Origin: Desulfococcus sp. 4484_241
Lineage (GTDB): Bacteria > Desulfobacterota > Desulfobacteria > Desulfobacterales > Desulfosudaceae
Assembly (NCBI GenBank): GCA_002085115.1
Contig: MZGQ01000023.1
Coordinates: forward strand, 1-43,886
Length of the DNA: 43,886 nt
Direction of reading: 5' to 3'
Position numbers and translations under genes: made by a program. Positions 30,801 through 43,886 of the stretch are shown one piece after another (positions within the stretch are counted from its first letter, which is position 1; every line of letters starts with the position of its first letter). Below the pieces are notes generated by a model. It was given only the letters and a program-made list of their open reading frames with translations. It searched no databases and had not been told where the DNA came from.

Positions 30801-31880
30801 ATGATGATTACAGGCAGAAAGATTCCAGATAACGCAACAACGGTTGCTGAGCCTGGTAACTCCCGGACCTTAGTGATTACCGGGGCCGGAATTTTGGGCA
30901 TATACCTCTGGTGGCTTATATACAGGCAGCTTCCGGCAACAGCCTCATGGATAACCTATGGTTTGTTCCAAATAGGGAAGGGGTCCCACCTGGGAGAGTC
31001 TGTCAACTTCTTTTTTTATGACACTCCCAAGGTCATGATGCTGCTTTTCCTGGTGGTTTTCGGTGTTGGAACAATAAGAAGCTTTTTTACGCCTGAAAAA
31101 ACCCGTGCCATTCTTTCCGGGAAAAACGAGTTTATAGGCAATATACTTGCCGCCCTGCTGGGCATAGTTACCCCTTTTTGTTCATGTTCGGCGGTTCCGC
31201 TTTTTATCGGTTTTGTAACGGCTGGCGTGCCTCTTGGCGTTACATTTTCCTTTCTTATAGCCGCACCCATGGTAAACGAAATCGCTGTTGGTCTTCTTTA
31301 CGGGCTTTTGGGCTGGAAGATCGCCGCCATATATATGGGAACAGGCCTGTCTGTCGCCATACTTTCCGGCTGGGTCATTGGAAGACTGCATCTTGAAAAG
31401 CACATAGAGGATTGGGTAACGGAGATTCGTGCCGATACCGATACGGGGAATGATGAACGTCTCACCTGGAATGACCGGATAATTTACGGGTGGGAAGCTG
31501 TCAAGGAGATAATCGGCAGGGTCTGGCTCTACGTGATGATAGGCATAGCCGTCGGGGCCGGAATACACGGTTATGTGCCGGAAGGTGTGATGGCGTCCGT
31601 TATGGGCAAGGGAGCCTGGTGGAGTGTTCCACTGGCGGTCTTGATCGGTGTTCCCATGTACTCCAACGCGGCGGGAATAGTCCCCGTAGTGGAGGCGCTC
31701 CTGGGTAAAGGCGCTGCTCTCGGTACCGTGCTTGCTTTCATGATGAGCGTAATAGCCCTTTCCCTCCCAGAGATGGTGATCCTGCGGAAGGTTTTAAAGC
31801 CAAGGCTTATTGGGATCTTTATATTGATCGTCACTGGCGGGATACTGCTGGTGGGATATCTTTTCAACATGGTTATATAG
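30801..31880 (+). CDS. UPF0718/ArsP-type permease
   Basis: Polytopic membrane permease of 359 residues with about eight to ten hydrophobic helices in two blocks (residues about 25-210 and 255-358). The hallmark TPFCSCSAVPLFIGF carries C127 and C129; such cysteines bind trivalent arsenic or other soft metals in ArsP relatives. A charged cytoplasmic loop lies at about 200-235. In many anaerobes this permease is followed by a small thioredoxin-like protein and a DGC protein. Here both downstream partners are broken. ATG at 30801 or 30804, with AGGATGG upstream. Export of an organic or thiol-bound metalloid is plausible; the substrate is not proven. Confidence 0.85.
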   Translation: MMITGRKIPDNATTVAEPGNSRTLVITGAGILGIYLWWLIYRQLPATASWITYGLFQIGKGSHLGESVNFFFYDTPKVMMLLFLVVFGVGTIRSFFTPEKTRAILSGKNEFIGNILAALLGIVTPFCSCSAVPLFIGFVTAGVPLGVTFSFLIAAPMVNEIAVGLLYGLLGWKIAAIYMGTGLSVAILSGWVIGRLHLEKHIEDWVTEIRADTDTGNDERLTWNDRIIYGWEAVKEIIGRVWLYVMIGIAVGAGIHGYVPEGVMASVMGKGAWWSVPLAVLIGVPMYSNAAGIVPVVEALLGKGAALGTVLAFMMSVIALSLPEMVILRKVLKPRLIGIFILIVTGGILLVGYLFNMVI

Positions 31881-31954
31881 ACAGACGGTTAAATGGTATC
31901 CATCCATTTTACTTGCCAGATGGAACAAAAAAATTGGCCGATACATGAAGCGGC

Positions 31955-31972
31955 TTTGCTGCTTGCAGCAAA
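31955..31972 (+). other. Hairpin between permease and thioredoxin-like pseudogene
   Basis: TTTGCTGC and GCAGCAAA form an 8-bp stem with only a TT centre. There is no T tract, and it lies 16 nt before the pseudogene start. It may be an RNA-processing or stability element. Confidence 0.3.
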
Positions 31973-31988
31973 CAGTGAGGGAACGGAT

Positions 31989-32209
31989 ATGGAGATAAGG
32001 ATACTTGGGCCTGGATGCGCCAAATGCAAAAAGGCGGAAAAGGTGGTAAGGGAAGCGGTTGCAGAGACATCCGTTGATGCGGATGTAAAAAAAGTTGAGG
32101 ATGTGATGGAGATAGTTTTGGCACGCCTGCCGTTGTGGTTAACGGAGAAGTTAAATGCGTGGGAAAGATCCCCAAAAAAGATGAGGTCATGAAATGGCTT
32201 GGAAAATAA
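31989..32209 (+). pseudogene. Frameshifted thioredoxin-like redox protein (redox-active disulfide family)
   Basis: The ATG at 31989 has GAGGGA upstream and encodes MEIRILGPGCAKCKKAEKVV with the CxxC active site, as in the small (about 77-residue) thioredoxin-fold proteins that accompany UPF0718 permeases. After VKKVEDVMEI (codon 43) the frame is wrong and stops at 32192. In the -1 frame the missing half is plain: FGTPAVVVNGEVKCVGKIP, ending KKDEVMKWLGK at a stop at 32207-32209. Compared with the usual spacing between EI and the TP motif, about 13 nt appear to have been lost near 32119-32127. The break removes the cis-proline region, so the product should be inactive. Confidence 0.75.
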
Positions 32210-32240: not shown

Positions 32241-32321
32241 ATGGAAGGAATAATCATATTGCCCTGTTCGGGCGGGTCCAACGTGGGGCAGCTTGCCAAC
32301 CGTGCGGCGGAGCCGCAATAA
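32241..32321 (+). pseudogene. 5' stub of a DGC-domain putative zinc-binding protein
   Basis: A 26-codon frame from the ATG at 32241 reads MEGIIILPCSGGSNVGQLAN and then RAAEPQ before TAA. The first 23 residues match the N-terminus of DGC-domain proteins (PCSGGSNVGQL...NxAA), normally about 110-130 residues, that neighbour UPF0718 permeases and thioredoxin-like genes. The rest, including the internal cysteines, is absent; the following bases encode nothing similar in any frame. This looks like a deletion remnant of the same operon. Confidence 0.65.
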
Positions 32322-32358: not shown

Positions 32359-32559
32359 TTGAAGAATTTAGTCTGTTTCTGTTTCGGGTATACGGCAGAG
32401 GATATCAAGGAAGACTTTCATAAAAACAAAAAGTCGTTGATCATGGAAAAGATATTAAAAGAGAAAAAAGCCGGAGGATGCCGGTGTGCCGAAAAAAATC
32501 CGAAAGGCCGGTGATGTGTCGCAGACGTCCGCCGGGTAGTGGATGAATGTAAAACATAG
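32359..32559 (+). CDS. Candidate selenoprotein: BFD-like [2Fe-2S] protein with in-frame UGA
   Basis: A TTG start at 32359, with AAAGGAAG about 6-13 nt upstream, opens LKNLVCFCFGYTAEDIKEDF. This is the beginning of small BFD-like/CopZ-N-like [2Fe-2S] proteins (CxC, then GGCRCAEKNPKGR). Codon 52 (32512-32514) is TGA. Reading through it gives CVADVRRVVDECKT and a TAG at 32557-32559, for 66 residues. In relatives the segment reads NPKG(x)CCLxDVxxVV, so the TGA occupies the first cysteine of the CC pair, a probable cluster ligand. A hairpin starting 11 nt after the TGA has bacterial SECIS geometry. Selenocysteine insertion is inferred. The alternative is a nonsense codon in a decaying gene, since both upstream genes are broken. 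This frame is shorter than usual gene-calling limits and would be split by ordinary annotation. Confidence 0.65.
32521..32550 (+). promoter_or_regulatory. Candidate bacterial SECIS element downstream of UGA 32512
   Basis: Upper stem CGTCCGC (32526-32532) pairs with GTGGATG (32539-32545), including two G-U pairs. The apical loop CGGGTA (32533-32538) has G in its second to fourth positions. A short outer stem (32521-32523 with 32548-32550) continues below an internal loop. The UGA-to-loop distance is 18 nt and the upper stem begins 11 nt after the UGA, within the range known for bacterial SECIS. Confidence 0.5.
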
Positions 32560-32719
32560 ACCTTGACATGGTGCATCAGCCGCCCGGATTTTGTTCGCGG
32601 CGCAGAAAGTGCGATGCTGATGGAACAGGGATAAGAAGTTTAAAAAAGGTACCCATTTGTTTTGTGGTGCCTTACAAACCGGCGCCATGAGATGCCGATA
32701 AACAAGGAGGATGAAGACC

Positions 32720-33244
32720 ATGCTGCTTAAAAACTATCGCCTTGAGATTTTCAATTCACAGTGTAATCCCGGCGCGATGAGCGTGCACTGCTTTGCCCAC
32801 CTCGACGAGGACGTTAGCGAGGCACTGCCGTATCTTAACGCGGTTCTGGGCGGATTTGAGTATATAAAGGAACCGCCGACCGTGGTTTTCCGTTCACAGG
32901 GCAAGCTGATAACCGTTCATGGCCGCAAGATCGCCATAAACGCCTTGAAGGACGAGACAGAAGCCAGGAAGATAGTGGAGTGGCTTAAACGGGAGATCAA
33001 CGAAGCGTGGGAAAAAAGAGATGAGATCGAGCCCTGCTATGAGAGCGCTCCCAGGCCCCGGATTCTTGAGATTCTGAAACGGCTGCCGAAAACAAACTGC
33101 AGGAAATGCGGGGAACCAACCTGCATGGTTTTTGCCACCAGGGTGGCCGAGGGCGCAAAGGGCTCTGATGACTGCCCGGAACTTGACGAGAGAGGAAAGG
33201 AAGAACTGGATTCGTATATGAAACAGTTTAAACTGGATTATTAA
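32720..33244 (+). CDS. (Fe-S)-binding protein with C-terminal 4Fe-4S domain
   Basis: 174 residues from the ATG at 32720. AAGGAGG ends 9 nt upstream; the ATG at 32711 abuts that site and is too close. The N-terminal about 110 residues (AHLDEDVSEALPYLNAVLGG and VHGRKIAINALKDETEA) form an unnamed domain. Residues 127-152 hold CRKCGEPTC...CP, the FeS (ACDS-gamma-type) motif with C127, C130, C135 and C152. I recall this architecture from other Desulfobacterota, often beside FmdE-like genes. It probably works in electron transfer or metal-cofactor handling with the FmdE-like protein encoded 18 nt downstream; the exact role is unknown. Confidence 0.82.
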   Translation: MLLKNYRLEIFNSQCNPGAMSVHCFAHLDEDVSEALPYLNAVLGGFEYIKEPPTVVFRSQGKLITVHGRKIAINALKDETEARKIVEWLKREINEAWEKRDEIEPCYESAPRPRILEILKRLPKTNCRKCGEPTCMVFATRVAEGAKGSDDCPELDERGKEELDSYMKQFKLDY

Positions 33245-33262
33245 GAAAGGAGGTATGCAAAG

Positions 33263-33871
33263 ATGGATGACAGGGAACTTCTTAAAAAGGCTTTTGAATT
33301 TCACGGTCATATCTGCTGGGCAAGCTGTGTTGGCGTGAGGGCCGGGATAGCAGCCCTGAGGGAACTTGGAGTCAGCCGGACAGGCACATCCGGTGAACTC
33401 CACTGCATACTCGAGATAGGCGACAATCACGGGGCACAGTGTTTTGCAGACGGGGTGCAATACGCGACCGGGTGCACGCTTGGGAAGTATAACATAGAGA
33501 AAACCGGCTGGGGCAAGCTTGCACTCACACTGATTGATAAAAAGAAGGAAAAAGCCGTTCGCGTCTCTTACAAACCGGCCCGTCATAAACTGATCGCGGA
33601 ATCGGCTTTCATGCGCAAGAGGGGGCAGGGTATACCGCCGACCGAGATACCTCCTGATGAGGCGTGGGCCATGGTTGACGTCATATGGGATGCGCCTGAG
33701 TCCGAGATCCTGGATATAGGCGAGGTCCATGATTATGAATGGGGCGATGACTTCGGAGAGATTATGGGACTTGTACCCTGTGATCAGTGCGGCGAGCTGG
33801 TGGCAAAGCCTTACCTCAGGGTCGTTGGCAAAGCACACATGTGTATTCCATGTTCCGGTTATGACAGGTAG
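33263..33871 (+). CDS. FmdE-family protein, first copy
   Basis: 202 residues; AAGGAGGT lies 8 nt before the ATG. Related to subunit E of tungsten/molybdenum formylmethanofuran dehydrogenase, which in bacteria occurs without the rest of that enzyme. Motifs: FHGHICWASCVG (15-26), a variant of the usual HGHxCPA, with an extra Cys; ATGCTLGKYN; and a C-terminal zinc ribbon CDQC...CIPCSGYDR. It pairs with the Fe-S protein upstream and is 41% or so alike, by eye, to a second copy at 34830. Its biochemical role in bacteria is not established; a part in molybdopterin/metal-centre handling or thiol redox is conjecture. Confidence 0.85.
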   Translation: MDDRELLKKAFEFHGHICWASCVGVRAGIAALRELGVSRTGTSGELHCILEIGDNHGAQCFADGVQYATGCTLGKYNIEKTGWGKLALTLIDKKKEKAVRVSYKPARHKLIAESAFMRKRGQGIPPTEIPPDEAWAMVDVIWDAPESEILDIGEVHDYEWGDDFGEIMGLVPCDQCGELVAKPYLRVVGKAHMCIPCSGYDR

Positions 33872-33940
33872 TGTCTGTCCATTTTTAAAGGGTGAGACAA
33901 GAAAGCTGAATAACCATGAAGACCGGTCGGGGGTCATACT

Positions 33941-34615
33941 TTGACGGTGATACGCCCATACAACAGTGATGATTCGGGCCCGGATGATGAGATAACCAGG
34001 ATCCTCGAGCCCTATTTTACCAGGTCCGGGTTCGCACAAGGCCGGATTTTGTGGAACGAGGGGGACAGAGCCGGCATGATGGTCCGGATACTGGAAGGAA
34101 GGGTCAAGATATTCCGTCCCCTTCAGGATGGCAGGCAGGCGGCTATTTACATCTTCGGGCCGGGCGATCTTTTCGGGTTCCTTCCCTTTATCGACGGTTC
34201 CCCTTACCCTGCAAGTGCGGAGGTGATGGAGGATACCCTGGCGCTTGTCATGACCCGGGAAAAACTTCACAAGGTCATGAGTGAGCATCCCGATGTGGCT
34301 GTTTTTCTGCTTGGCCACCTTGCAAAACGTCTGCGCGGAGCGTTCGACCAGATTGAAAGGCTCTCCACGCGCGGCGTTTTGTCAAGGGTGGCTGCCGCCC
34401 TTTATTCCCTTTCCGCCAGGTCCGGCATGAACACGGGTCTCGATGTTGTTACACTGCCTGTTTCATCCATGGAGTATGCCTCCCTCGCGGGGCTGACCCC
34501 GGAAAGTTTTTCACGCGGAATAACCAGGCTTGCAGAGTCCGGAATAATTCGCCGCCTGAGCAGAAACTCATTCCAGATTCTCGATCCAAAGAGGCTGGAA
34601 CAAGAGTTCCGTTAG
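33941..34615 (+). CDS. Crp/Fnr-family transcriptional regulator
   Basis: 224 residues from a TTG (33941) with GGGGG 7 nt upstream; GTG at 33947 is the alternative. It has an N-terminal cyclic-nucleotide-binding-type barrel (about 25-140; GRVKIFRPLQDGRQAAIYIF, FGPGDLFGFLPF) and a C-terminal winged helix (about 150-224; SSMEYASLAGLTPESFSRGI, shown in part). There are no FNR-type N-terminal cysteines, so it is not a classic [4Fe-4S] FNR; HcpR or other ligand-sensing subgroups fit better. An HcpR-like palindrome lies 114 nt beyond its stop, before the second fmdE, suggesting it controls its neighbours. Confidence 0.88.
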   Translation: MTVIRPYNSDDSGPDDEITRILEPYFTRSGFAQGRILWNEGDRAGMMVRILEGRVKIFRPLQDGRQAAIYIFGPGDLFGFLPFIDGSPYPASAEVMEDTLALVMTREKLHKVMSEHPDVAVFLLGHLAKRLRGAFDQIERLSTRGVLSRVAAALYSLSARSGMNTGLDVVTLPVSSMEYASLAGLTPESFSRGITRLAESGIIRRLSRNSFQILDPKRLEQEFR

Positions 34616-34728
34616 CCGGGATATTTCATGAAAATCCGCGTTAGTGTGCCCAGACTGGAGGTTGCCACAGGAACGTTTCCAGGTCGTTTTGTTTTATCTG
34701 TTTTAGTCGGGACTGAAAATGTATGAAA

Positions 34729-34744
34729 ATTGACCACGGTCAAT
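34729..34744. promoter_or_regulatory. HcpR/Crp-Fnr-like operator
   Basis: ATTGACC-AC-GGTCAAT has perfect 7-bp inverted arms. It matches, from memory, the deltaproteobacterial HcpR consensus (wTTGACC..GGTCAAw). It lies 85 nt before the second fmdE start and just after a Crp/Fnr-family gene. Confidence 0.6.
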
Positions 34745-34829
34745 GCATGGTTCCTGACAAGTGCTTATGATGCAGCACAGGCAAAAGATAAAATTTTGTT
34801 GTAAACCTTAACATTAAAGAGAGATAATC

Positions 34830-35438
34830 ATGGAAACGTTTGAAAGTCTGTTTGAAACAGGATTGAAGTTTCACGGTCACAGGTGCCCGGCCATGCCAAT
34901 GGGACTTAAGGCAGGGCTTGCGGCGATGAAGGTATTGGGGGTGGAGCGTGCCCAGGACAAGGAGCTGTCGGTGATAGCGGAAACCGGCAAGGAACATGCC
35001 GCGGGATGTTTTCTGGACGGCATAATGACCGCTACGGGTTGTACCTATGGAAAATCGAATATTCAAAAACTCTATTACAACAAGATGGCTTTCACCCTGA
35101 TCGATAATGCCACCGGCAGGTCGGTCCGGGTTTCCCTGAAACCAAGCTTTTTTGAAAAGGCGCTTGGCTCTCCATTTGTGCAGCAGCGCAAGGCCGGGGT
35201 CCCTCCACAGGACATAGATCCTTCAATTGCCGACCCGCTGATCGACAACGTTATATCCCTTGAGGAGGATAAGTTCCTCGATATAGGGGAGGTGAAGACC
35301 GTTGAGGTTGTGAAGGGCAAGGGGATTTTTGAGGCCAGGCGTTGTGAATCCTGCGGGGAGGTTACGTTCGTTAACAAGCTCAGGCTTACCCCCGAAGGTA
35401 AACTCGTGTGTATACCATGTTCGGGGTATGCGGATTGA
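34830..35438 (+). CDS. FmdE-family protein, second copy
   Basis: 202 residues, the same length as the first copy. It keeps the canonical [12 protein letters not shown] (10-21), [19 protein letters not shown], and the zinc ribbon CESC...CIPCSGYAD. Compared with the first copy it lacks the second cysteine of the CWASC segment, so the two probably bind different metals or partners. AGAGAGAT sits before the ATG. An HcpR-like operator upstream gives it its own control. It is followed by a TauE/SafE permease. Confidence 0.85.
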
Positions 35439-35521
35439 ATTTTCATTTATAAACAGCTTCCCTCCGCTATTTTTTATGCCGATTGCGGGGTGTCTGGCGA
35501 CAGGTACAGAGGAATAAAACG

Positions 35522-36274
35522 ATGCTTCTTTCCGCGGTTACATTGAGTATATTTGCCCTTTCGATCATCTTTGCCATGCTTGGTCTTGGCGGTGCCATGC
35601 TCTATATCCCGGTGTTCCACTGGTTCGGGTATGATTTCAGATCGGTTGTCATACCGACCGGGCTTCTTTTAAACGGCGTTACAGCGCTGTCTGCCGCCAT
35701 CTTTTATCTGAAGGCCAGGATGGTGGACGTCAAGGGGTCTGTTCCGCTCGTGATATCGTCCTTTATCGGCGCGCCGGTCGGGGCGTGGTTTACCAGTATG
35801 GTGCCTACCGATACCCTGATACTTCTTTTTTGTATAGGCATGGTTTTTGCCGGCGGTCGGATGCTGCTTACTTCGGGCGCGCCGGAAAAGGACCGGTTGA
35901 TGGCACCCGGGCTTCGCTATACCCTGATGGGGATAGCCGGGTTTTTTATAGGCATGATAGCGGGGCTGCTTGGGATCGGCGGCGGATTTTTGTTTGTGCC
36001 GATGATGATCGCAATGGGGTATCCCACTAAAACCGCTGCGGCCACAAGCTCTTTTGTGGTGATATTTTCATCCTTCTCCGGATTTGCCGGGCATATAGCG
36101 GAGGGCCATTTCAACTGGCCGCTCATGGCGGCCACCACGGTTGCCGTTATCATAGGTTCCCAGATCGGGGCCAAGGTGATGAAGGAAAAGATGAAGCCGG
36201 CGTGGATAAAGAAGATGTTCGGGGTCGTTTTGCTCGGTGTCGCGGCCAAACTGCTTTGGAAACTTTATCTTTGA
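35522..36274 (+). CDS. TauE/SafE-family sulfite/anion permease
   Basis: 250 residues from the ATG at 35522 (AGAGGAATAAAACG upstream; a TTG at 35483 is unlikely). Seven or eight hydrophobic helices in two homologous halves are visible, with the repeated glycine motifs MLGLGGAMLYIPVF (about 18-31) and LLGIGGGFLFVPMMI (about 152-166) that define the family. Members export or import small anions such as sulfite, sulfoacetate or thiosulfate. The substrate is open. It ends 35 nt before the TolC-type lipoprotein gene and may be cotranscribed with it. Confidence 0.88.
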   Translation: MLLSAVTLSIFALSIIFAMLGLGGAMLYIPVFHWFGYDFRSVVIPTGLLLNGVTALSAAIFYLKARMVDVKGSVPLVISSFIGAPVGAWFTSMVPTDTLILLFCIGMVFAGGRMLLTSGAPEKDRLMAPGLRYTLMGIAGFFIGMIAGLLGIGGGFLFVPMMIAMGYPTKTAAATSSFVVIFSSFSGFAGHIAEGHFNWPLMAATTVAVIIGSQIGAKVMKEKMKPAWIKKMFGVVLLGVAAKLLWKLYL

Positions 36275-36309
36275 ACAATGAAAGCCCTTTGGGAATCCGG
36301 GAGAGTGTA

Positions 36310-37749
36310 ATGGCCAGGCCGATAGTAGCGGCAGTCTTTTTATGTTTCGTATCCGCGGCGCTTGCCGGTTGTGCCGTTATCTCACCGACCGATCCTTATC
36401 CTCCGGCGGTTGCAGCCGATTTTCATCCAAAACCAGCGGTGAATACGGTAAAGAAGGATGCAGGTAAAACCGGCTCCACGGACAATGTGCAAAGAAACGC
36501 CCTTACTTTAAAGATGGCTGTTGATACCGCCATTGCCAATAACCCGGGCCTGGCCGCAGCCAGGCATGAGACGGAGATGGCAGAGGCACGCCATACCCAG
36601 GCGCTGGCCAGGGCCTTGCCGTCTGTTTCAGCCATGGGCGGTTATACCCATTATACCGACGACCAGAGGCTTATGCCGCCGAACCTTAACGGGGACCCCG
36701 GGGTCTTTGGTGATGATATCTATTCCGCTGACATTGTGATTACTCAGCCCCTTTTTACAGGCGGCAGGCTGATAAAGGAGATAGGAGCGGCAAAACTTCT
36801 GGCCCTGGCCGCTGAGCATCGGCTTTCACGCACGAAAAAGGAGCTGGTGTTTAACGTGACCAGCGTTTTTTATTCAATACTGGCGCAGAAAAAGGTTGTC
36901 GATGCCTTAAAGTTTTCCAAGACAACCATGGATGAGCATTTAAGAAGGGTGAACAGCCTGATTGACCAGAAAAAAGCCGCGCGGGTCGACAGGCTGAGAA
37001 CAGAGGTGCGGCTGGCCGATATAGAGCAGAAATTGACAGCAGCCGAAAACCTGCTTGCCATACAAACCAGGGTCCTTGCAAACCTGATGGGAATCAGGGC
37101 TGACTTGATTGACGCGTCAGGGCTGGAGGGCGATCTTGCGGAGGCTTTGCAATCCCAGGTTGATACGGAGAGGTCTGTTTCAGCGGCTTTCAAGAACAGG
37201 TCTGATTACCTGGCAGCCAGGGCGGCCCTGGAGGCTGCGGCCAAAAAGGTGGATGCGGCAAGGGCGGAACATTGGCCTTCCGTCACCCTGGAGGGGACTT
37301 ACGGCATGCGTTGGGCCCATAACCCTTCGGACTATCCAGCTGGTACGGACAGGTCTGACGACCTTGGGCGTGTTGGTGTTTTCATGAAATTGCCCGTTTT
37401 TGAAAGCGGCCTTATATCCGGCAAAGTAAAGGAAGAGAGAGCCGCTTTGGGCGTGGCAAGGGAAAGGCTGAGGGCGTTGGAGCTTGCCATTCGGCTGGAG
37501 GTTGAGACCGCGGCGCTAAATATCCGTAATGCTCACAAAAGAGTGGTTACAACAAAAAAGGCCGTTGACCAGGCAGAGGAAACCCTTCGTATTGAGAGGG
37601 AGAAGTATGAACTGGGAAGGGGCTCGATCACGGATGTATTGGACGCACAGTCCGCTATGCTTGATTCCCAGACCGGTTATTACAAAGCGCTGGCCGATTT
37701 TAATACGGCGATTGCTCAAATGCGGCTTGCGACAGGAGAGATTAAATGA
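36310..37749 (+). CDS. TolC-family outer-membrane efflux lipoprotein
   Basis: 479 residues from the ATG at 36310 (GGGAGA upstream); an in-frame start at 36202 would overlap the permease. A lipoprotein signal ends at LAGC, lipidated C21. Two outer-membrane efflux (OEP) repeats follow, with helical, Ala-rich periplasmic hairpins (TLKMAVDTAIANNPGLAAAR; LFTGGRLIKEIGAA) and a second copy after residue 260 (VFESGLISGKVKEERAAL). The last block GSITDVLDAQSAMLDSQTGYY is typical. Its stop overlaps the membrane-fusion protein start, forming a tripartite pump. Confidence 0.92.
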   Translation: MARPIVAAVFLCFVSAALAGCAVISPTDPYPPAVAADFHPKPAVNTVKKDAGKTGSTDNVQRNALTLKMAVDTAIANNPGLAAARHETEMAEARHTQALARALPSVSAMGGYTHYTDDQRLMPPNLNGDPGVFGDDIYSADIVITQPLFTGGRLIKEIGAAKLLALAAEHRLSRTKKELVFNVTSVFYSILAQKKVVDALKFSKTTMDEHLRRVNSLIDQKKAARVDRLRTEVRLADIEQKLTAAENLLAIQTRVLANLMGIRADLIDASGLEGDLAEALQSQVDTERSVSAAFKNRSDYLAARAALEAAAKKVDAARAEHWPSVTLEGTYGMRWAHNPSDYPAGTDRSDDLGRVGVFMKLPVFESGLISGKVKEERAALGVARERLRALELAIRLEVETAALNIRNAHKRVVTTKKAVDQAEETLRIEREKYELGRGSITDVLDAQSAMLDSQTGYYKALADFNTAIAQMRLATGEIK

Positions 37750-38933
37750 ATATGAAAAAACCAGGGGCTGTCAGGACGCTCGCAATAGTGTTGGTGATCT
37801 TGGCCTGCGCAGCAGGACTTATTATGAAAAAACGCGCCAAGCTGGCCGGGGCTCCGAAGTATGGCCTGTCTCCCACTGTCGTTCATGTGGCAAAGGCAGA
37901 AAAGGACAATCTTGACGTCGGGTTGAGTTACCTTGGTGTGGTAGAGCCGTTCAACAGGGCGGATGTCGCATCACGCGTGGCCGCATCGGTCATTAACGTC
38001 CCTGTGGACGAGGGCGACCTGGTAAAGAAGGGCGGTCTGCTTGTTGAGCTTGACGAGAAGGATATTTTAAAGGATATAGCCTCTCTTGCCGCACAGGTAA
38101 AACGGGCAAAAGCCGAGCTTTCGGCAAACAACGCCACACTGGCGGCTCTTGAAAAATCGGTGGATTACTGGAAGCGGGAAGCGCAGCGTGACATGACTCT
38201 TGCCAGGGACGGGGCCATTGCCGAGTCTCTGGCGGAAGCAACGGTAAACAAGGCCGACGAAATCGAGGGGAAACGCGATGCCGCGCGCAGGAAATCCACG
38301 GCTCTGGCCGAGGCCGTTGAGTCGCTTTCCCGCAAAAAGGCAAGGGCTGAGGCCCAGCTTGACTATTACAGGCTTCGCTCTCCCTTTGACGGAATCGTCA
38401 CCCGCAGGCTGGTGGATCCCGGCGATCTTGCGTCCCCGGGACGTGCGCTTGTGACCGTTGAGGACAGGAGCAGGATGATGGTTGTCTTTGATGTTCCCCA
38501 GCAGGATCTTGACCGTGTACGCGAAGGCCTGCCGGTATCGTTTTCCATAGGTGATAAGCCGATTAAGGCCAGGATTTCCCATATCTACCCGGCCCTTTCA
38601 CCTTCCCGCATGGCACGCGCGGAGGTGTATATCGACGGGCCTGACAGGAAAAATATGACCATAGGAGCCTACGTGCCTGCCACCGTTCGCATTGCACATT
38701 TGGAAAACGTCACCCTTATTCCTTCCGACTGTATGGTTAACCGTGAGGATGGCAAGCCTTATGTTTATGCGGTTCGGGACGGTCATATTCATACAATGCA
38801 GGTGAAAGAGCTTGGGAACAACGGGAACATGACGGCTGTATCGGGGATTTCTCCCGGCGAACAGGTGGTAATCAACACCTTTCTGGGATGGGCTACGCTT
38901 GCCGATGGAATGCCGGTGGAGGTGGCCAGGTGA
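37746..38933 (+). CDS. RND efflux periplasmic adaptor (membrane fusion protein)
   Basis: 395 residues. An N-terminal membrane anchor (about 10-28, AIVLVILACAAGLIM) is followed by a lipoyl/hairpin domain (NVPVDEGDLVKKGGLLVELD), a long alpha-helical hairpin (about 105-205), then LRSPFDGIVTRRLVDPGDLA and the beta-barrel. It links the inner-membrane RND transporter to the TolC-like protein. It starts 4 nt inside the upstream gene and its stop overlaps the RND start (GTGA), so stoichiometry is coupled. Confidence 0.92.
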   Translation: MNMKKPGAVRTLAIVLVILACAAGLIMKKRAKLAGAPKYGLSPTVVHVAKAEKDNLDVGLSYLGVVEPFNRADVASRVAASVINVPVDEGDLVKKGGLLVELDEKDILKDIASLAAQVKRAKAELSANNATLAALEKSVDYWKREAQRDMTLARDGAIAESLAEATVNKADEIEGKRDAARRKSTALAEAVESLSRKKARAEAQLDYYRLRSPFDGIVTRRLVDPGDLASPGRALVTVEDRSRMMVVFDVPQQDLDRVREGLPVSFSIGDKPIKARISHIYPALSPSRMARAEVYIDGPDRKNMTIGAYVPATVRIAHLENVTLIPSDCMVNREDGKPYVYAVRDGHIHTMQVKELGNNGNMTAVSGISPGEQVVINTFLGWATLADGMPVEVAR

Positions 38934-41900
38934 ACCTGACAAATTTTTCCCTGAAAAATCCTTATGCAATCCTTGCGTTGACACTGGCTGTTTCGGCGCT
39001 GGGAGCGTTCGCCTTTTTCAGGACCCCGACCGACCTGTTTCCCAATACGGTGCCGCCGCAGGTGGTGATCATTACCGTGGAGCCGGGGGCCGCTGCCCGT
39101 GACATATCGGACAAGATCACGGAGATAGTTGAAAAAGAGGTCAACACAATAAGCGGGTTGAAGAGGATAGTCTCAACTTCAAGGGACGAGGTCTCGTCCG
39201 TCAATGCCGAGTTTTATTATTCAAAGAGTATCGGAGAGGCGGTCATCGACGTTCAGAACGCCATCAGTCGAATCAGGCCGGAACTTCCGAAAGATATACT
39301 TGAGCCGCGTATTTACCGCATAACCGACGCAACCCGTCCCTTGCTGACCGTGGCGCTGTCACCGAAACCGGGCTCTGGAAAAACACTCTCGGAAATCCGG
39401 TTGCTTGCTGAAAACCAGATCGAAGACGAGATATTGAGGCTTCCCGGTATTGCTGATGTTGACGTGTTCGGTGCACACCAGCCGGAGGTTGAGGTACGCG
39501 TCTCGCGGGATCGGCTGGCGGCCCATAATATCAGCATAGCCGAAGTGGCGGCGGCCCTGGCGAGGCAGAACATTTCAAGCCCTGCGGGCACAATCTATTC
39601 AGGGAAAAAAGAATACCTTATGCGCACCACCGGGGAGTTTGCGAACCTGAGGGATATCTCAGAGTTCCCTGTAAGGCATGAGGGAAAGGGGTTTTTAAAG
39701 ATTTCGGATGTCGCTACCGTAACGCTTGGAGAGCATGAGCAGCGCAGCGTATATCATGGCAACGGGAAGCCGGCAATCGCGATAAACGTACTGCGCCCGG
39801 AAAACGGGCCGACCGTATCTGCTATCAAGAGTTTCAAAAAACTGCTGCCGAAGCTGAAAGCCCAGTACCCGGATATTGATTTTTCAATAACCGACGACCA
39901 GCAGCCGATCATAGACATCAATGTCCACGGCATGCGGTCCAGCCTGATGCAGGCCGTCATCCTGACCGTTTTTATAATTTTTTTCTTTCTGGCCGATACG
40001 AGGGCCGCCATGGTGGTGTCTGTCAGCATTCCACTTGCTTTTCTGATTTCTCTGGTGGTGCTTTGGTTTTCCCCCTACACGCTGAACATGGTGACCCTCT
40101 CCGGCCTTATAATAGCAGTCGGGATGGTTGTTGATTCCTCCGTGGTGGTCCTTGAAAACATCTACCGCCATTTCCGGGCCATGAAACAGCCGGACGCGCG
40201 CAAGGCCGCCGAAGAGGGCGCAAGCGAGGTCTCACTTGCCATTACCGCGGGCATGTTCACAACCGTGATCGTGCTGATACCGGTCATGTTCACCGGCGGA
40301 TACACCCAGCAGGTGATGCGGCCGCTGAACATGATGATCTCCTCGACGCTGGTCGCGTCCCTGCTGGTGGCGTTGACCATTATTCCGCTCATGGCGTCAA
40401 AGCTTCTTAACCGTCCCCACGACAGCATGAACGCCCTTGAGCGGATATTTTCCCGTACCGACAGGGGCGTGAGCAAACTGGCGGAAATTTACATTGCGAT
40501 TTTGAAGCTGGCGCTCTCCAGGCGGACTGTTACATTGGTCCTGGCTTTTGGATTTTTCATAATAACCATGCGGGTGGTGAAACCGCTGAACGGCGGGGAG
40601 CTTATGCCGCTTATGGACACGGGCATAGCTTTGATTAACTTTGATACCCCCGGCACCTACTCGCCTGGGGAGGTTGAAAAGGTGCTTGGGCGCGTGGAAA
40701 AGATGATCTATGAGCAGCCGGGTGTGGAGATGGTTTCCTCTGTTGTTGGGTCGGAGCCGGGACAGATAAGCTTTGGGGGCGGAGGAGCCACCACCCAGTC
40801 GGCAAAGATCACGATCCACCTGGTGGACAGGAAACACCGGCCCGAGACCATCTGGCAGATCGAGGAGAAGTGGCGCAAGGCCTTACGCAAAATTGACGGT
40901 ATCCGTTCCTTCCGGGTGAGCGAATACGGCGCCACTCCGCTTTCCACCACCAAGGCGCCCCTGGATATCATCATAAGCGGCCCTGATACCAAGGTGCTGA
41001 GCGACCTGGCGGACAAGTGCCTTGCGGCATTGAAAGGGATGCCGGGCCTGGTTGATGTCAGGCGTACATGGTACACCGACAAGGTCGAGCATGATATTAC
41101 CTTTGATCCTGAGCTGGCGCGTCTTTACAGGATTAATCCGGCGGATGCCACGCGTGAACTTAAAGCTGCCGTCAAGGGAATCCCTGCGACCTCGATGCGG
41201 CTTTCAGGTTTTTTGGATATCCCGGTTAACGTTCAGTATGCCGGGACGGACATTGACAACCCCAATCAGATCAATGATGCGTATCTCACTACGAAATTTG
41301 GGCCCGTTCCGCTGAGGGCCGTGGCCAGGGTGGCGAAGAAACACGATCAGCCCTTTATAACCAGGGAGCGCCTGGAAAACACCATTGATGTTACGGGCGG
41401 AAATTATATTCTGACCATCGCCCAGGTTGCAAAGATGGCGCAAAAGAGGCTTGCAAAGATCAACGTTCCGCAGGGATATTCCATCAATGTCTCCGGGACG
41501 TTTGCCGATATGGCAGCCGGTCAGCGCGAGATGGGAAAGGCGCTTCTTATAGGCATTGTTTTGCTCTATTTTCTTTTGCTTGCCATGTTCCGCTCCTTCG
41601 GCCATCCAGTCACCATAATGTCTGCCATTCCTCTGGCTGTTGCCGGCGCGATGTGGGGCCTGCTGCTGTTTGACAAGCCCATGTGCAAGCCGGCCACCAT
41701 GGGGCTGATCCTGTTAGGCGGCACCATCGTCAACAACTCGATCCTGCTGCTTGATTTCATCATAGAGGCAAGAAAGCGCGGGGTACCAAAGACCGAAGCC
41801 ATTTTGCAGTCTGTTCGGTTGCGTATACGGCCGATCCTGATGACCACCGCGTCCACCATAATCGGGCTCACTCCACTGATCTTCGAGATGGCGGTGGGGC

Positions 41901-42058
41901 TGGAGCGGATGAGTCCTTTGGGAATCGTTGCGGCCACCGGCCTGCTGGTGGGGACTTTCCTGACCATGATCGTGATCCCGGTGGTATATTCATCGCTGGA
42001 CAGCCTGGTGGAAAAGTTTTCACGTGTTTTTACAGGTGCGGACAGCGTAACAGGTTAA
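38930..42058 (+). CDS. RND-family efflux transporter permease
   Basis: 1042 residues from a GTG at 38930 with GGAGG upstream; the typical AcrB-like length. Twelve hydrophobic segments surround two large periplasmic loops. Helix 4 carries SGLIIAVGMVVDSSVVVLEN, in which only one aspartate is present where AcrB has two. The C-terminal half has MGLILLGGTIVNNSILLLDF. The periplasmic part has RIYRITDATRPLLTVALS. It exports hydrophobic or amphiphilic compounds, or lipids, by proton antiport; no substrate is evident. It is the third gene of the TolC-MFP-RND operon. Confidence 0.93.
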   Translation: MNLTNFSLKNPYAILALTLAVSALGAFAFFRTPTDLFPNTVPPQVVIITVEPGAAARDISDKITEIVEKEVNTISGLKRIVSTSRDEVSSVNAEFYYSKSIGEAVIDVQNAISRIRPELPKDILEPRIYRITDATRPLLTVALSPKPGSGKTLSEIRLLAENQIEDEILRLPGIADVDVFGAHQPEVEVRVSRDRLAAHNISIAEVAAALARQNISSPAGTIYSGKKEYLMRTTGEFANLRDISEFPVRHEGKGFLKISDVATVTLGEHEQRSVYHGNGKPAIAINVLRPENGPTVSAIKSFKKLLPKLKAQYPDIDFSITDDQQPIIDINVHGMRSSLMQAVILTVFIIFFFLADTRAAMVVSVSIPLAFLISLVVLWFSPYTLNMVTLSGLIIAVGMVVDSSVVVLENIYRHFRAMKQPDARKAAEEGASEVSLAITAGMFTTVIVLIPVMFTGGYTQQVMRPLNMMISSTLVASLLVALTIIPLMASKLLNRPHDSMNALERIFSRTDRGVSKLAEIYIAILKLALSRRTVTLVLAFGFFIITMRVVKPLNGGELMPLMDTGIALINFDTPGTYSPGEVEKVLGRVEKMIYEQPGVEMVSSVVGSEPGQISFGGGGATTQSAKITIHLVDRKHRPETIWQIEEKWRKALRKIDGIRSFRVSEYGATPLSTTKAPLDIIISGPDTKVLSDLADKCLAALKGMPGLVDVRRTWYTDKVEHDITFDPELARLYRINPADATRELKAAVKGIPATSMRLSGFLDIPVNVQYAGTDIDNPNQINDAYLTTKFGPVPLRAVARVAKKHDQPFITRERLENTIDVTGGNYILTIAQVAKMAQKRLAKINVPQGYSINVSGTFADMAAGQREMGKALLIGIVLLYFLLLAMFRSFGHPVTIMSAIPLAVAGAMWGLLLFDKPMCKPATMGLILLGGTIVNNSILLLDFIIEARKRGVPKTEAILQSVRLRIRPILMTTASTIIGLTPLIFEMAVGLERMSPLGIVAATGLLVGTFLTMIVIPVVYSSLDSLVEKFSRVFTGADSVTG

Positions 42059-42077
42059 AGCGATATGGAGAGGAGGC

Positions 42078-43403
42078 ATGAGCCGGATAAACAGATTCTG
42101 GTGCCTATTCCTGGTGTTGTTGATCATCATGGCCGGTTTTGCTCCTCCCGGGAACGCGTCGCTTTTTGAATACAAAAGTCAGGGCACAGACCCGGTGGCC
42201 GTTTCCCTGGGCGGAACATACCGTTTGAGGGGTGAGTCCCAGCACAGCTACAACTCCAGGACGTATGGCGGCGACGGCGACAATTTCCTGCTGTCCCGGC
42301 TCAGGCTCGACATCAACGCCTCGTTTCATTCCAGGCTAAGGACGTTCCTCGAGTTTCAGGACTCAAGAAGCCAGGGATCAATGTTCAATGATTCCGATTT
42401 CAAGGTCAGCAACCCGTACCATGATGATATGGATATTCGTCAGGCCTATGTTGACTACGGGTTGGACAACGGCCTTTCCTTCAGGCTGGGCCGGCAGCAG
42501 ATATCCTTCGGAGACAAGCGCATATTCGGGCCGGGCAACTGGGGGAACACCGGCAGGTACGTATGGGACGCGGCCAGGATACGGTATGTGAACCCATGGA
42601 TCGATTCCCATACTTTTATCGGCCGCTATATTATCCGGGACCCGGACACCTGGCCAAACAAACACGCGGATGGACCGACCGCTTATGCAAACTACACCAT
42701 GATCAAAAACCTGCCATTTGACCTGGATATTTTTTACATCGTCAAAAGCGACACCCACGGGAATACCACAGGGGAGTCAGGAACCGGGAACCTCTCCTGC
42801 CATAACACCGGGTTTGCCATAAACGGGACGTTAAACCGGTGGGACTATGGACTGACCGCAGTATACCAGTTCGGTGATAAAGGGGAAGACGATATCTCGG
42901 CATACGGGCTTGCGGCAAGACTCGGTTATACCTTTGACCTGCCGTGGTCTCCCCACGTTATGCTCCAGTTTGTAAATGGTTCCGGTGACAAGGATCCCGG
43001 CGACGGCAAAAGCGGTACATTTGACGGGGTTTTCTCCGGGGCCGACACGGTGCTCTATGGATGGATGAACCTGTTTTTCTGGTCAAACACGAGGGAGTAC
43101 CGGCTTGATACGGTCCTGTCTCCAACGGATAAACTCTCTTTGCGGGGGGAATATCACTATTTCACGCTGGATGAAAAAAAGGACGCCTGGTACTACCCCG
43201 GAAAGGCCCAGCGGCGGGACAAAACCGGCGCTTCGGGCCGGGACCTGGGCCAGGAGGTGGACCTTACGTTTCACTACAAGGCTTCAAAACGGCTTGATCT
43301 CCGGGGTGGTTACTGCATGTTTTTCCCCGGAGAGTTTATAAGGAATACCGGCCCGCATCCCAATGCATCATGGGCATTTTTGCAAACCGTCTTTTACTTT
43401 TAA
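42078..43403 (+). CDS. Alginate-export-type outer-membrane porin
   Basis: 441 residues with a strong GGAGAGGAGG site before the ATG. The signal peptide is about 1-28 (LFLVLLIIMAGFAPPGNASL). The mature part is a beta-barrel of aromatic-ended strands with the alginate_exp-type features YRLRGESQHSYNSR, FLLSRLRLDINASFHSRLRT and FRLGRQQISFGDKRIFGPGN (each in part), ending WAFLQTVFYF with a C-terminal Phe. It lies 19 nt after the RND gene and 13 nt before a c-type cytochrome. It could be the outer-membrane channel of that unit or a simple substrate porin; a porin-cytochrome conduit is an inference. Confidence 0.85.
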   Translation: MSRINRFWCLFLVLLIIMAGFAPPGNASLFEYKSQGTDPVAVSLGGTYRLRGESQHSYNSRTYGGDGDNFLLSRLRLDINASFHSRLRTFLEFQDSRSQGSMFNDSDFKVSNPYHDDMDIRQAYVDYGLDNGLSFRLGRQQISFGDKRIFGPGNWGNTGRYVWDAARIRYVNPWIDSHTFIGRYIIRDPDTWPNKHADGPTAYANYTMIKNLPFDLDIFYIVKSDTHGNTTGESGTGNLSCHNTGFAINGTLNRWDYGLTAVYQFGDKGEDDISAYGLAARLGYTFDLPWSPHVMLQFVNGSGDKDPGDGKSGTFDGVFSGADTVLYGWMNLFFWSNTREYRLDTVLSPTDKLSLRGEYHYFTLDEKKDAWYYPGKAQRRDKTGASGRDLGQEVDLTFHYKASKRLDLRGGYCMFFPGEFIRNTGPHPNASWAFLQTVFYF

Positions 43404-43416
43404 CGGAGGTATAGGC

Positions 43417-43886
43417 ATGCAGGGGTATAATCGTTTATTTATGTTTTTTTTAGTCATCGGTGTACTGTTGGCCGGATCAACGGCTTATGCTCTTGTCCAG
43501 GCACAGCAGCAGGTTCCATCCGATAAGATATACGAACAGGCCAAACAGGACGCCATGGGGATCTGCCCCCCGATCTTTCTGCGGGATGAGAACGGGAATG
43601 TTATCAACCCGGTTACCGGGGTGAATGCGGATGTGCCGTACAGCCCGAAGCAGACCTGTGGAAAATGTCACGATTACGGCAAGATAACAGAAGGGTTTCA
43701 TTTCATGCAGGGAAAGGGTGAAAAGATGACCGCCGGGTATGCGGCCCTATATCCCTGGTGTACCACCCCTGGCCAATACGGGGGCAGGTGGTGAAGTCCG
43801 GGGCCGATCTTTCCGCAGTTGGCGGAAAAGCATAACGACTCTCCCTTAAAGATTGATTTTACCTCCTATACATTTGCTAAGATGTG
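43417..43886 (+). CDS. Candidate selenoprotein: multihaem c-type cytochrome with in-frame UGA (3' partial)
   Basis: The ATG at 43417 follows GGAGGTATAGGC. The signal peptide is about 1-25 (LFMFFLVIGVLLAGSTAYA); then come ICPPIFLRDENGNVINPVTG, QTCGKCHDYGKITEGFHF with haem motif CGKCH at 81-85, and YPWCTTPGQYGGRW. Codon 126 (43792-43794) is TGA. The frame then continues without a stop for 30 codons to the window end: SPGPIFPQLAEKHNDSP, ending IDFTSYTFAKM. Relatives, as I recall from Geobacter-like multihaem cytochromes, read GGxWCSPAPLY and MDMTSFTF at this place. The coding pattern therefore carries on and the TGA sits at a cysteine. A perfect hairpin follows. Selenocysteine is inferred. The gene is truncated by the window edge, so the haem count is unknown. 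Confidence 0.7.
43810..43828 (+). promoter_or_regulatory. Candidate bacterial SECIS element downstream of UGA 43792
   Basis: TTTCCGC (43810-43816) and GCGGAAA (43822-43828) form a perfect 7-bp stem with a 5-nt loop AGTTG, having G at loop position 2. The loop begins 22 nt after the UGA, within the 16-37 nt range usual for bacterial SECIS. Confidence 0.5.

Follow-up and report, generated by a model that had tools for sequence, protein, structure and literature searches.

We analyzed a stretch of 43,886 nucleotides (nt), here called the window, which is the entire contig C33 of the draft genome of Desulfococcus sp. 4484_241 (G000; 2.34 Mb, 128 contigs, 87% complete; G, C, and L numbers are our handles for genomes, contigs, and loci). 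The window carries two genes with in-frame UGA codons, one for a small [2Fe-2S] protein of the CopZ family (CopZ-U) and one for a multiheme cytochrome, together with the genes between and around them (Table 1). The original prediction had placed a hairpin of 7 base pairs (bp) with a loop of 5 to 6 nt behind each UGA, beginning 18 and 22 nt downstream, and both codons and both hairpins were confirmed. It had also held that UGA is a normal stop elsewhere; indeed, the prenyltransferase, trpB-like, and nrdR genes and several neighbors end in TGA, which rules out a general change of the code. An Rfam scan across the window gave zero matches. Comparisons were made with a set of 58 genomes of relatives, G000 included, and with a phylum sample of 395 genomes.

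The first UGA lies in the frame LKNLVCFCFGYT...NPKGR(U)CVADVRRVVDECKT. Read through, it gives a product of 66 residues, a stand-alone BFD-like [2Fe-2S] domain in which selenocysteine (Sec) would adjoin a cysteine (motif GRUC). The product matched both NF047645 (50.3 bits, E value = 2.8e-13, model positions 86 to 137, the last 52 of 138; cut-off, 100) and the Pfam domain Fer2_BFD (20.0 bits, E value = 8.9e-4; cut-off, 26) below their cut-offs. Table 1 of a 2026 inventory of selenoproteins lists a "(2Fe-2S)-binding protein (copper chaperone CopZ family) form 1" with the motif GxUC (PMC13188914). CopZ-U shares with this form the BFD-like domain and, in its GRUC, the motif, and differs in being a stand-alone domain; by these features, it is a predicted new member of that published family. 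The gene was matched in 23 of the 58 genomes, 22 of which had a single TGA inside it; the sole match without a TGA (G052) covered residues 4 to 38 only. In the phylum sample, 60 genomes had the gene, with a single internal TGA in 58; the two genomes without a TGA were left out of the residue alignment.

The second UGA stands in the frame ...TPGQYGGRW(U)SPGPIFPQLAEKHN..., in a cytochrome gene that is cut by the end of the contig. Because the last 104 nt of C33 match the reversed end of contig C12 exactly, the two contigs appear to be adjacent, which is supported by relatives such as L058, whose cytochrome lies on a single contig (62% identity over query positions 14 to 729). One frame runs across the join for 919 residues, with the UGA at residue 126 (U126), 793 residues beyond it, and eight CXXCH motifs. 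The N terminus holds a hydrophobic helix, the context of the predicted Sec is W-U-S-P, and the C terminus holds a Ni_hydr_CYTB (cytochrome b561) domain (54.2 bits). No NCBIfam model matched the 919-residue cytochrome above its cut-off; in the relative L057, the b-type domain did score above the cut-off of TIGR01583 (129.1 versus 115.85 bits). Neither a search of PDB chain sequences with the 919-residue protein nor a plasmid search with a 156-residue part of it found a match. In the closest relative (L055/L084, 80% identity), the frame is broken past the Sec region, with two internal TAA codons, and stops after 211 residues. The single-contig genome G648 has two copies of the cytochrome gene, at C1:713586 and C1:456681, with one TGA each.

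Next, we looked into which codon occupies the position of U126 across the relatives. It was UGA in 29 sequences (the window, L055 to L058, L060, L061, L062, L092, L096, L102, L250 to L255, L258, L259, L262, L263, and L270 to L277), Cys in 22 (L059, L085 to L089, L091, L093 to L095, L097, L099, L100, L256, L257, L260, L261, and L264 to L268), and Ser in one. This count omits L084 and L090 (the same records as L055 and L056), L054/L249 (the gene's own contig C12), L063 to L072, L101, and L106 (residue absent, non-Cys, or gapped), L269 (residue uncovered), the second copy in G648, and matches without a locus. Among 17 aligned relatives, which were picked for covering the residue, Cys or Sec was invariant (17/17). 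In the Ser form (L278, in G421), TCA replaces TGA, yet the hairpin and CAGTTGGC are kept; this is possibly a recent loss of Sec.

The hairpin of the cytochrome gene followed the UGA codon. The best hairpin averaged −8.6 kcal/mol in the 29 UGA forms versus −2.4 kcal/mol in the 22 Cys forms, without overlap between the two groups (Mann-Whitney U = 0). Furthermore, the peptide Gln-Leu-Ala was spelled CAG-TTG-GCG, which forms the hairpin loop and part of the stem, in 26 of the 27 UGA forms having that peptide and in 0 of 9 Cys forms. In L060, L062, and L270 to L277, the UGA lies two codons closer to the hairpin. For the CopZ gene, we evaluated covariation over 21 of the 22 UGA loci, the distant L052 being omitted: 92.3% of cells were paired, 9 cells had changed on both sides, and 1 of 500 shuffles but none of 6 slid registers reached the covariation score. 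Synonymous recodings folded less well than the native hairpin sequences. With 300 recodings at site 1, 21 of the 22 UGA loci folded more stably than at least 90% of the recodings, and the summed energy lay below all 300 null sums; L052 was the only locus with a P value above 0.1 (P value = 0.22). The loop offsets in this null were set after an earlier synonymous test was known, one seed served all sequences, and both that earlier test and the UGA-versus-Cys comparison used wider offsets. The sequences share ancestry, so the P values of the synonymous-recoding and UGA-versus-Cys tests overstate independence. We consider these comparative tests (the synonymous-codon nulls, the covariation in the CopZ family, and the UGA and Cys forms of the cytochrome) decisive for identifying the hairpins as putative selenocysteine insertion sequences (SECIS).

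The genome also holds most of the machinery for Sec. We found a canonical tRNASec (UCA anticodon, G73) at 76 bits and SelA at 604.6 bits; SelD (382.7 bits) is itself encoded with one internal TGA, at SG*AGK. For membership among the selenoproteins, the two genes showed an in-frame UGA (in the cytochrome at a residue that is Cys in other relatives, in CopZ at one that is nearly always UGA), a conserved 3' hairpin, and tRNASec, SelA, and SelD in the genome. Because Sec and Cys exchange among the relatives, because hairpins at a fixed offset occur in UGA forms only, and because tRNASec, SelA, and a UGA-containing SelD are present, both UGAs are very probably read as Sec through the downstream SECIS by the organism's own tRNASec, SelA, and SelD, with SelB presumably missing from the draft, yielding CopZ-U and a 919-residue selenocytochrome. 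The local recoding proposed in the original prediction is thereby supported.

Several results weigh against this interpretation. No SelB was found above the cut-off in the 87% complete G000. The best match to the model (192 bits) can be taken for EF-Tu because it is flanked by tRNA-Trp and tRNA-Thr; since SelB was above the cut-off in 50 of the 58 genomes searched, its absence would be due to the incompleteness of the assembly. In G257, which has a UGA cytochrome, the only match to the tRNASec model above the cut-off was a tRNA with U73 and a GCA anticodon. L064 to L072 and the gapped L063 have no Cys or Sec at cytochrome residue 126; the cytochrome fold therefore appears independent of that residue. 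The structure model of the cytochrome was poor (predicted local distance difference test score of 51.9, alignment A2) and did not place the Sec relative to heme. For hairpin 2, fixed-column analysis over 9 UGA forms gave weak covariation, probably because the register of the stem shifts by one between subgroups: 54 of 500 shuffles equaled the observed pairing (80.6% of cells), and 117 of 500 equaled the covariation score. The compensatory changes that the original prediction called for were found in hairpin 1, and the signal in hairpin 2 was weak.

Folding energies relative to shuffled sequence, the other expectation of the original prediction, gave signals that were weak or absent in the 45- and 60-nt windows, at site 2 especially. 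Against 200 dinucleotide shuffles per window, the 45 nt from the UGA scored z = −1.84 at site 1 (7/200 shuffles equal or better) and z = +0.47 at site 2 (127/200), and the 60 nt from the UGA scored −0.81 and +0.48, respectively; the 26-nt hairpins alone scored −1.28 (21/200) and −2.30 (6/200). Energy alone was indecisive, and we dropped it as proof. The original prediction is corrected on two points: folding energy alone is insufficient, and the family at site 1 is already published.

We then weighed whether the UGAs might be read as something other than Sec. G000 has a second tRNA with a UCA anticodon (L010, G000:C71:26142-26234), which carries U73 in place of G73, lies about 5.4 kb from selA, and sits between two genes that we take to be radical-SAM-like. 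A U73 UCA tRNA adjoins a SelB-like gene in L222 to L226 and L229; three of these SelB-like genes were above the model cut-off, the others were judged from reading frames, and in G018, G019, and G025 the gene is additional to the main selB. The same unusual tRNA body occurs with a GCA (Cys) anticodon in L221 (G007) and L238 (G257).

Such tRNAs recall the selC* tRNACys with a second selB (selB*) that PMC7609411 describes in Syntrophobacterales and Desulfobacterales. The likeness consists of U73, a UCA or GCA anticodon, and the SelB-like gene adjoining in relatives, whereas the U73 tRNA of G000 stands alone and has G instead of A as its first nucleotide. G73, for its part, is given as essential for tRNASec in PMC5330540. 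A selC*-type tRNACys could insert Cys at both UGAs, with or without a second SelB, and the Sec/Cys exchange by itself fits either amino acid. However, among the 21 relatives with a UGA-containing CopZ gene (G000 excluded), 17 had a tRNASec match of at least 73 bits, and a lower-scoring second tRNA was present in only one of these (G025); G004, G005, G009, and G035 had no tRNASec match. Moreover, four of the five UGA-cytochrome genomes whose tRNAs were read (G169, G239, G282, and G323) contain a G73 tRNASec as their sole match above the cut-off, and the U73 tRNA of G000 does not adjoin a SelB gene. We therefore consider Cys insertion very unlikely.

It is extremely unlikely that the hairpins have no role as SECIS and arise only from constraints on the protein and its codons: the 45- and 60-nt shuffles at site 2 fold equally well, but synonymous recodings fold worse, and no such hairpin is present in the Cys forms, whose protein constraint is similar. 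Least probable of all is that the UGAs are real stops, which would end the first gene at 51 residues and make the cytochrome a pseudogene or a fragment of 125 residues. Termination does compete at every Sec UGA, and the Thioredoxin_3 and DGC genes directly before CopZ-U are broken. However, many genomes in both families conserve the reading frame downstream of the UGA, with UGA or Cys codons at the residue, and UGA forms, unlike Cys forms, retain the hairpin.

Under Sec insertion, then, a bacterial SECIS hairpin shortly after each UGA would direct its decoding. The first gene would give the 66-residue BFD-like [2Fe-2S] protein with its GRUC motif, and the second a protein with an N-terminal hydrophobic helix, a periplasmic octaheme c domain with one Sec, and a C-terminal b561-type membrane domain. 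By its CbcL-like architecture, the b-type domain may trade electrons with quinones of the membrane pool, and the heme domain may hand electrons to a periplasmic partner or substrate. The Sec, lying near heme, would serve in redox chemistry or in binding a metal(loid), acting as a strong nucleophile or a soft ligand.

Table 1. Features of the window discussed in the text (all coordinates on the window)
Feature	Position	Strand	Remarks
ArsP_1-family predicted permease (PF03773)	30801..31880	+	Pfam 258.6 bits; counterparts adjoin CopZ-U in L279, L280
Thioredoxin_3-like gene, broken	31893..32192	+	Pfam 47.6 bits, positions 1-42 of 76; remainder in another frame
DGC-domain gene, truncated start	32241..32321	+	26 residues aligned with DGC positions 1-19 of 106; score under the cut-off
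CopZ-U, predicted CopZ-family BFD-like [2Fe-2S] selenoprotein gene (form 1, GxUC)	32359..32559	+	TTG start inferred; stop TAG
Putative recoded UGA 1 (U52)	32512..32514	+	UGA at the aligned residue in 22/22 covering loci, G000 included
Putative SECIS hairpin 1	32526..32545	+	7-bp stem 32526-32532/32539-32545; 6-nt loop CGGGUA; 18 nt after UGA
177-residue protein, Fe-S cluster domain (PF04060)	32711..33244	+	adjoins cytochrome in L099, L100; adjoins CopZ-U in L031
FmdE-domain protein 1	33263..33871	+	Pfam 100.2 bits
Crp/Fnr-type regulator	33941..34615	+	NCBIfam matches, below cut-off
FmdE-domain protein 2	34830..35438	+	Pfam 98.3 bits
TauE/SafE permease	35483..36274	+	Pfam 157.4 bits; TauE near cytochrome also in L097, L279, L281
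TolC-type outer-membrane efflux protein	36310..37749	+	OEP 216.7 bits; start inferred within open reading frame 36202-37749
HlyD/CusB-type membrane-fusion protein	37746..38933	+	Pfam match
RND efflux permease	38930..42058	+	NF033617 570.7 bits, cut-off 1250; start inferred within open reading frame 38888-42058
Alginate_exp-type outer-membrane porin	42078..43403	+	Pfam 208.9 bits
Predicted octaheme c/b561-type cytochrome selenoprotein (cytochrome-U), 5' part	43417..43886	+	runs on into contig C12 to TAG, 919 residues in total
Putative recoded UGA 2 (U126)	43792..43794	+	29 UGA, 22 Cys codons, and 1 Ser at the residue, G000 included
Putative SECIS hairpin 2	43810..43828	+	7-bp stem 43810-43816/43822-43828; 5-nt loop AGUUG; 22 nt after UGA

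The genes of the window follow one another from the ArsP-type permease through the Thioredoxin_3 and DGC pieces, CopZ-U, the Fe-S, FmdE, Crp-type, and second FmdE genes, TauE, and the TolC-type, HlyD-type, RND, and porin genes to cytochrome-U (Table 1). In the phylum sample, seven genomes had both selenoprotein genes (G000, G491, G648, G649, G704, G721, and G739), and in four of these, G000 included, the two lay on one contig within about 11 kb, which bears out the selenium-using redox neighborhood suggested by the original prediction. The three other genomes with a linked pair all had ArsP-type permease genes alongside, and two of them had RND efflux genes. The order was low-molecular-weight (LMW) phosphatase-like protein, ArsP, CopZ-U, TauE, and cytochrome-U in L279 (G721) and LMW-phosphatase-like protein, ArsP, CopZ-U, TolC, HlyD, RND, and cytochrome-U in L280 (G739); L281 (G648) had CopZ-U on the opposite strand, an ArsP_1 gene, an SBF-family transporter, TolC, HlyD, RND, cytochrome-U, and TauE. 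Alginate_exp matches lay near the cytochrome in L055/L084, L056/L090, L085, L086, L088, L089, and L097. By gene content, the two selenoprotein genes appear to sit in a conserved metal/metalloid efflux cluster. This suggests that the cluster handles or exports some metal or metalloid. Arsenic is one lead, though not a result, because the LMWPc and SBF families include arsenate reductase and ACR3.

Finally, we compared the cytochrome with known systems. ExtKL of Geobacter (NF040886) is likewise a c-type cytochrome with one Sec, but the window cytochrome has eight CXXCH motifs, a b561-type domain, and an ArsP/RND/porin cluster, and NF040886 did not match it at an E value of ≤1 or any of 17 relatives at an E value of ≤0.001. 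With the tetrathionate reductase family octaheme cytochromes (TIGR04315) it shares eight c-type heme motifs and a weak common stretch; however, its score of 33.6 bits lay below the cut-off of 375, its b-type domain lies outside the matched stretch, and the best E value among the 17 relatives was 1.8e-10. The portion of PMC9129911 on CbcL of Geobacter sulfurreducens describes a periplasmic c domain (nine hemes, about 250 residues) fused to a diheme b-type membrane domain. The likeness is one of architecture only; CbcL has nine hemes and selenium is unmentioned in that portion, whereas the window cytochrome has eight CXXCH motifs and a predicted Sec.

Among the papers listed in our literature search, none dealt with a Sec-containing octaheme or multiheme cytochrome besides ExtKL and the TIGR04315 entry. 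The latter is the one Sec-containing "tetrathionate reductase family octaheme" GenBank entry, WP_331457571.1, in the inventory (PMC13188914). The cytochrome seems to represent a selenoprotein family that is absent from the 119 listed there, the octaheme entry being compared by description only. Tentatively, and with some doubt, we propose that the octaheme c/b561 cytochrome is an unlisted selenoprotein family that forms with CopZ-U a conserved two-selenoprotein metalloid module (ArsP-type permease, CopZ-U, RND pump, and selenocytochrome), in which a quinone-linked cytochrome would use Sec near heme in binding or reducing whichever metalloid or sulfur species is exported.

Gene calling that takes UGA for a stop cuts the cytochrome, and its Sec is thus invisible in ordinary annotation. 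The natural UGA and Cys versions of the cytochrome, with matching presence or absence of the hairpin, would offer a clean comparison for what Sec contributes to a heme protein. Moreover, because the two predicted selenoproteins are conserved together beside an ArsP-type permease and an RND pump, they may act in the handling of metals or metalloids, a role that can be tested.

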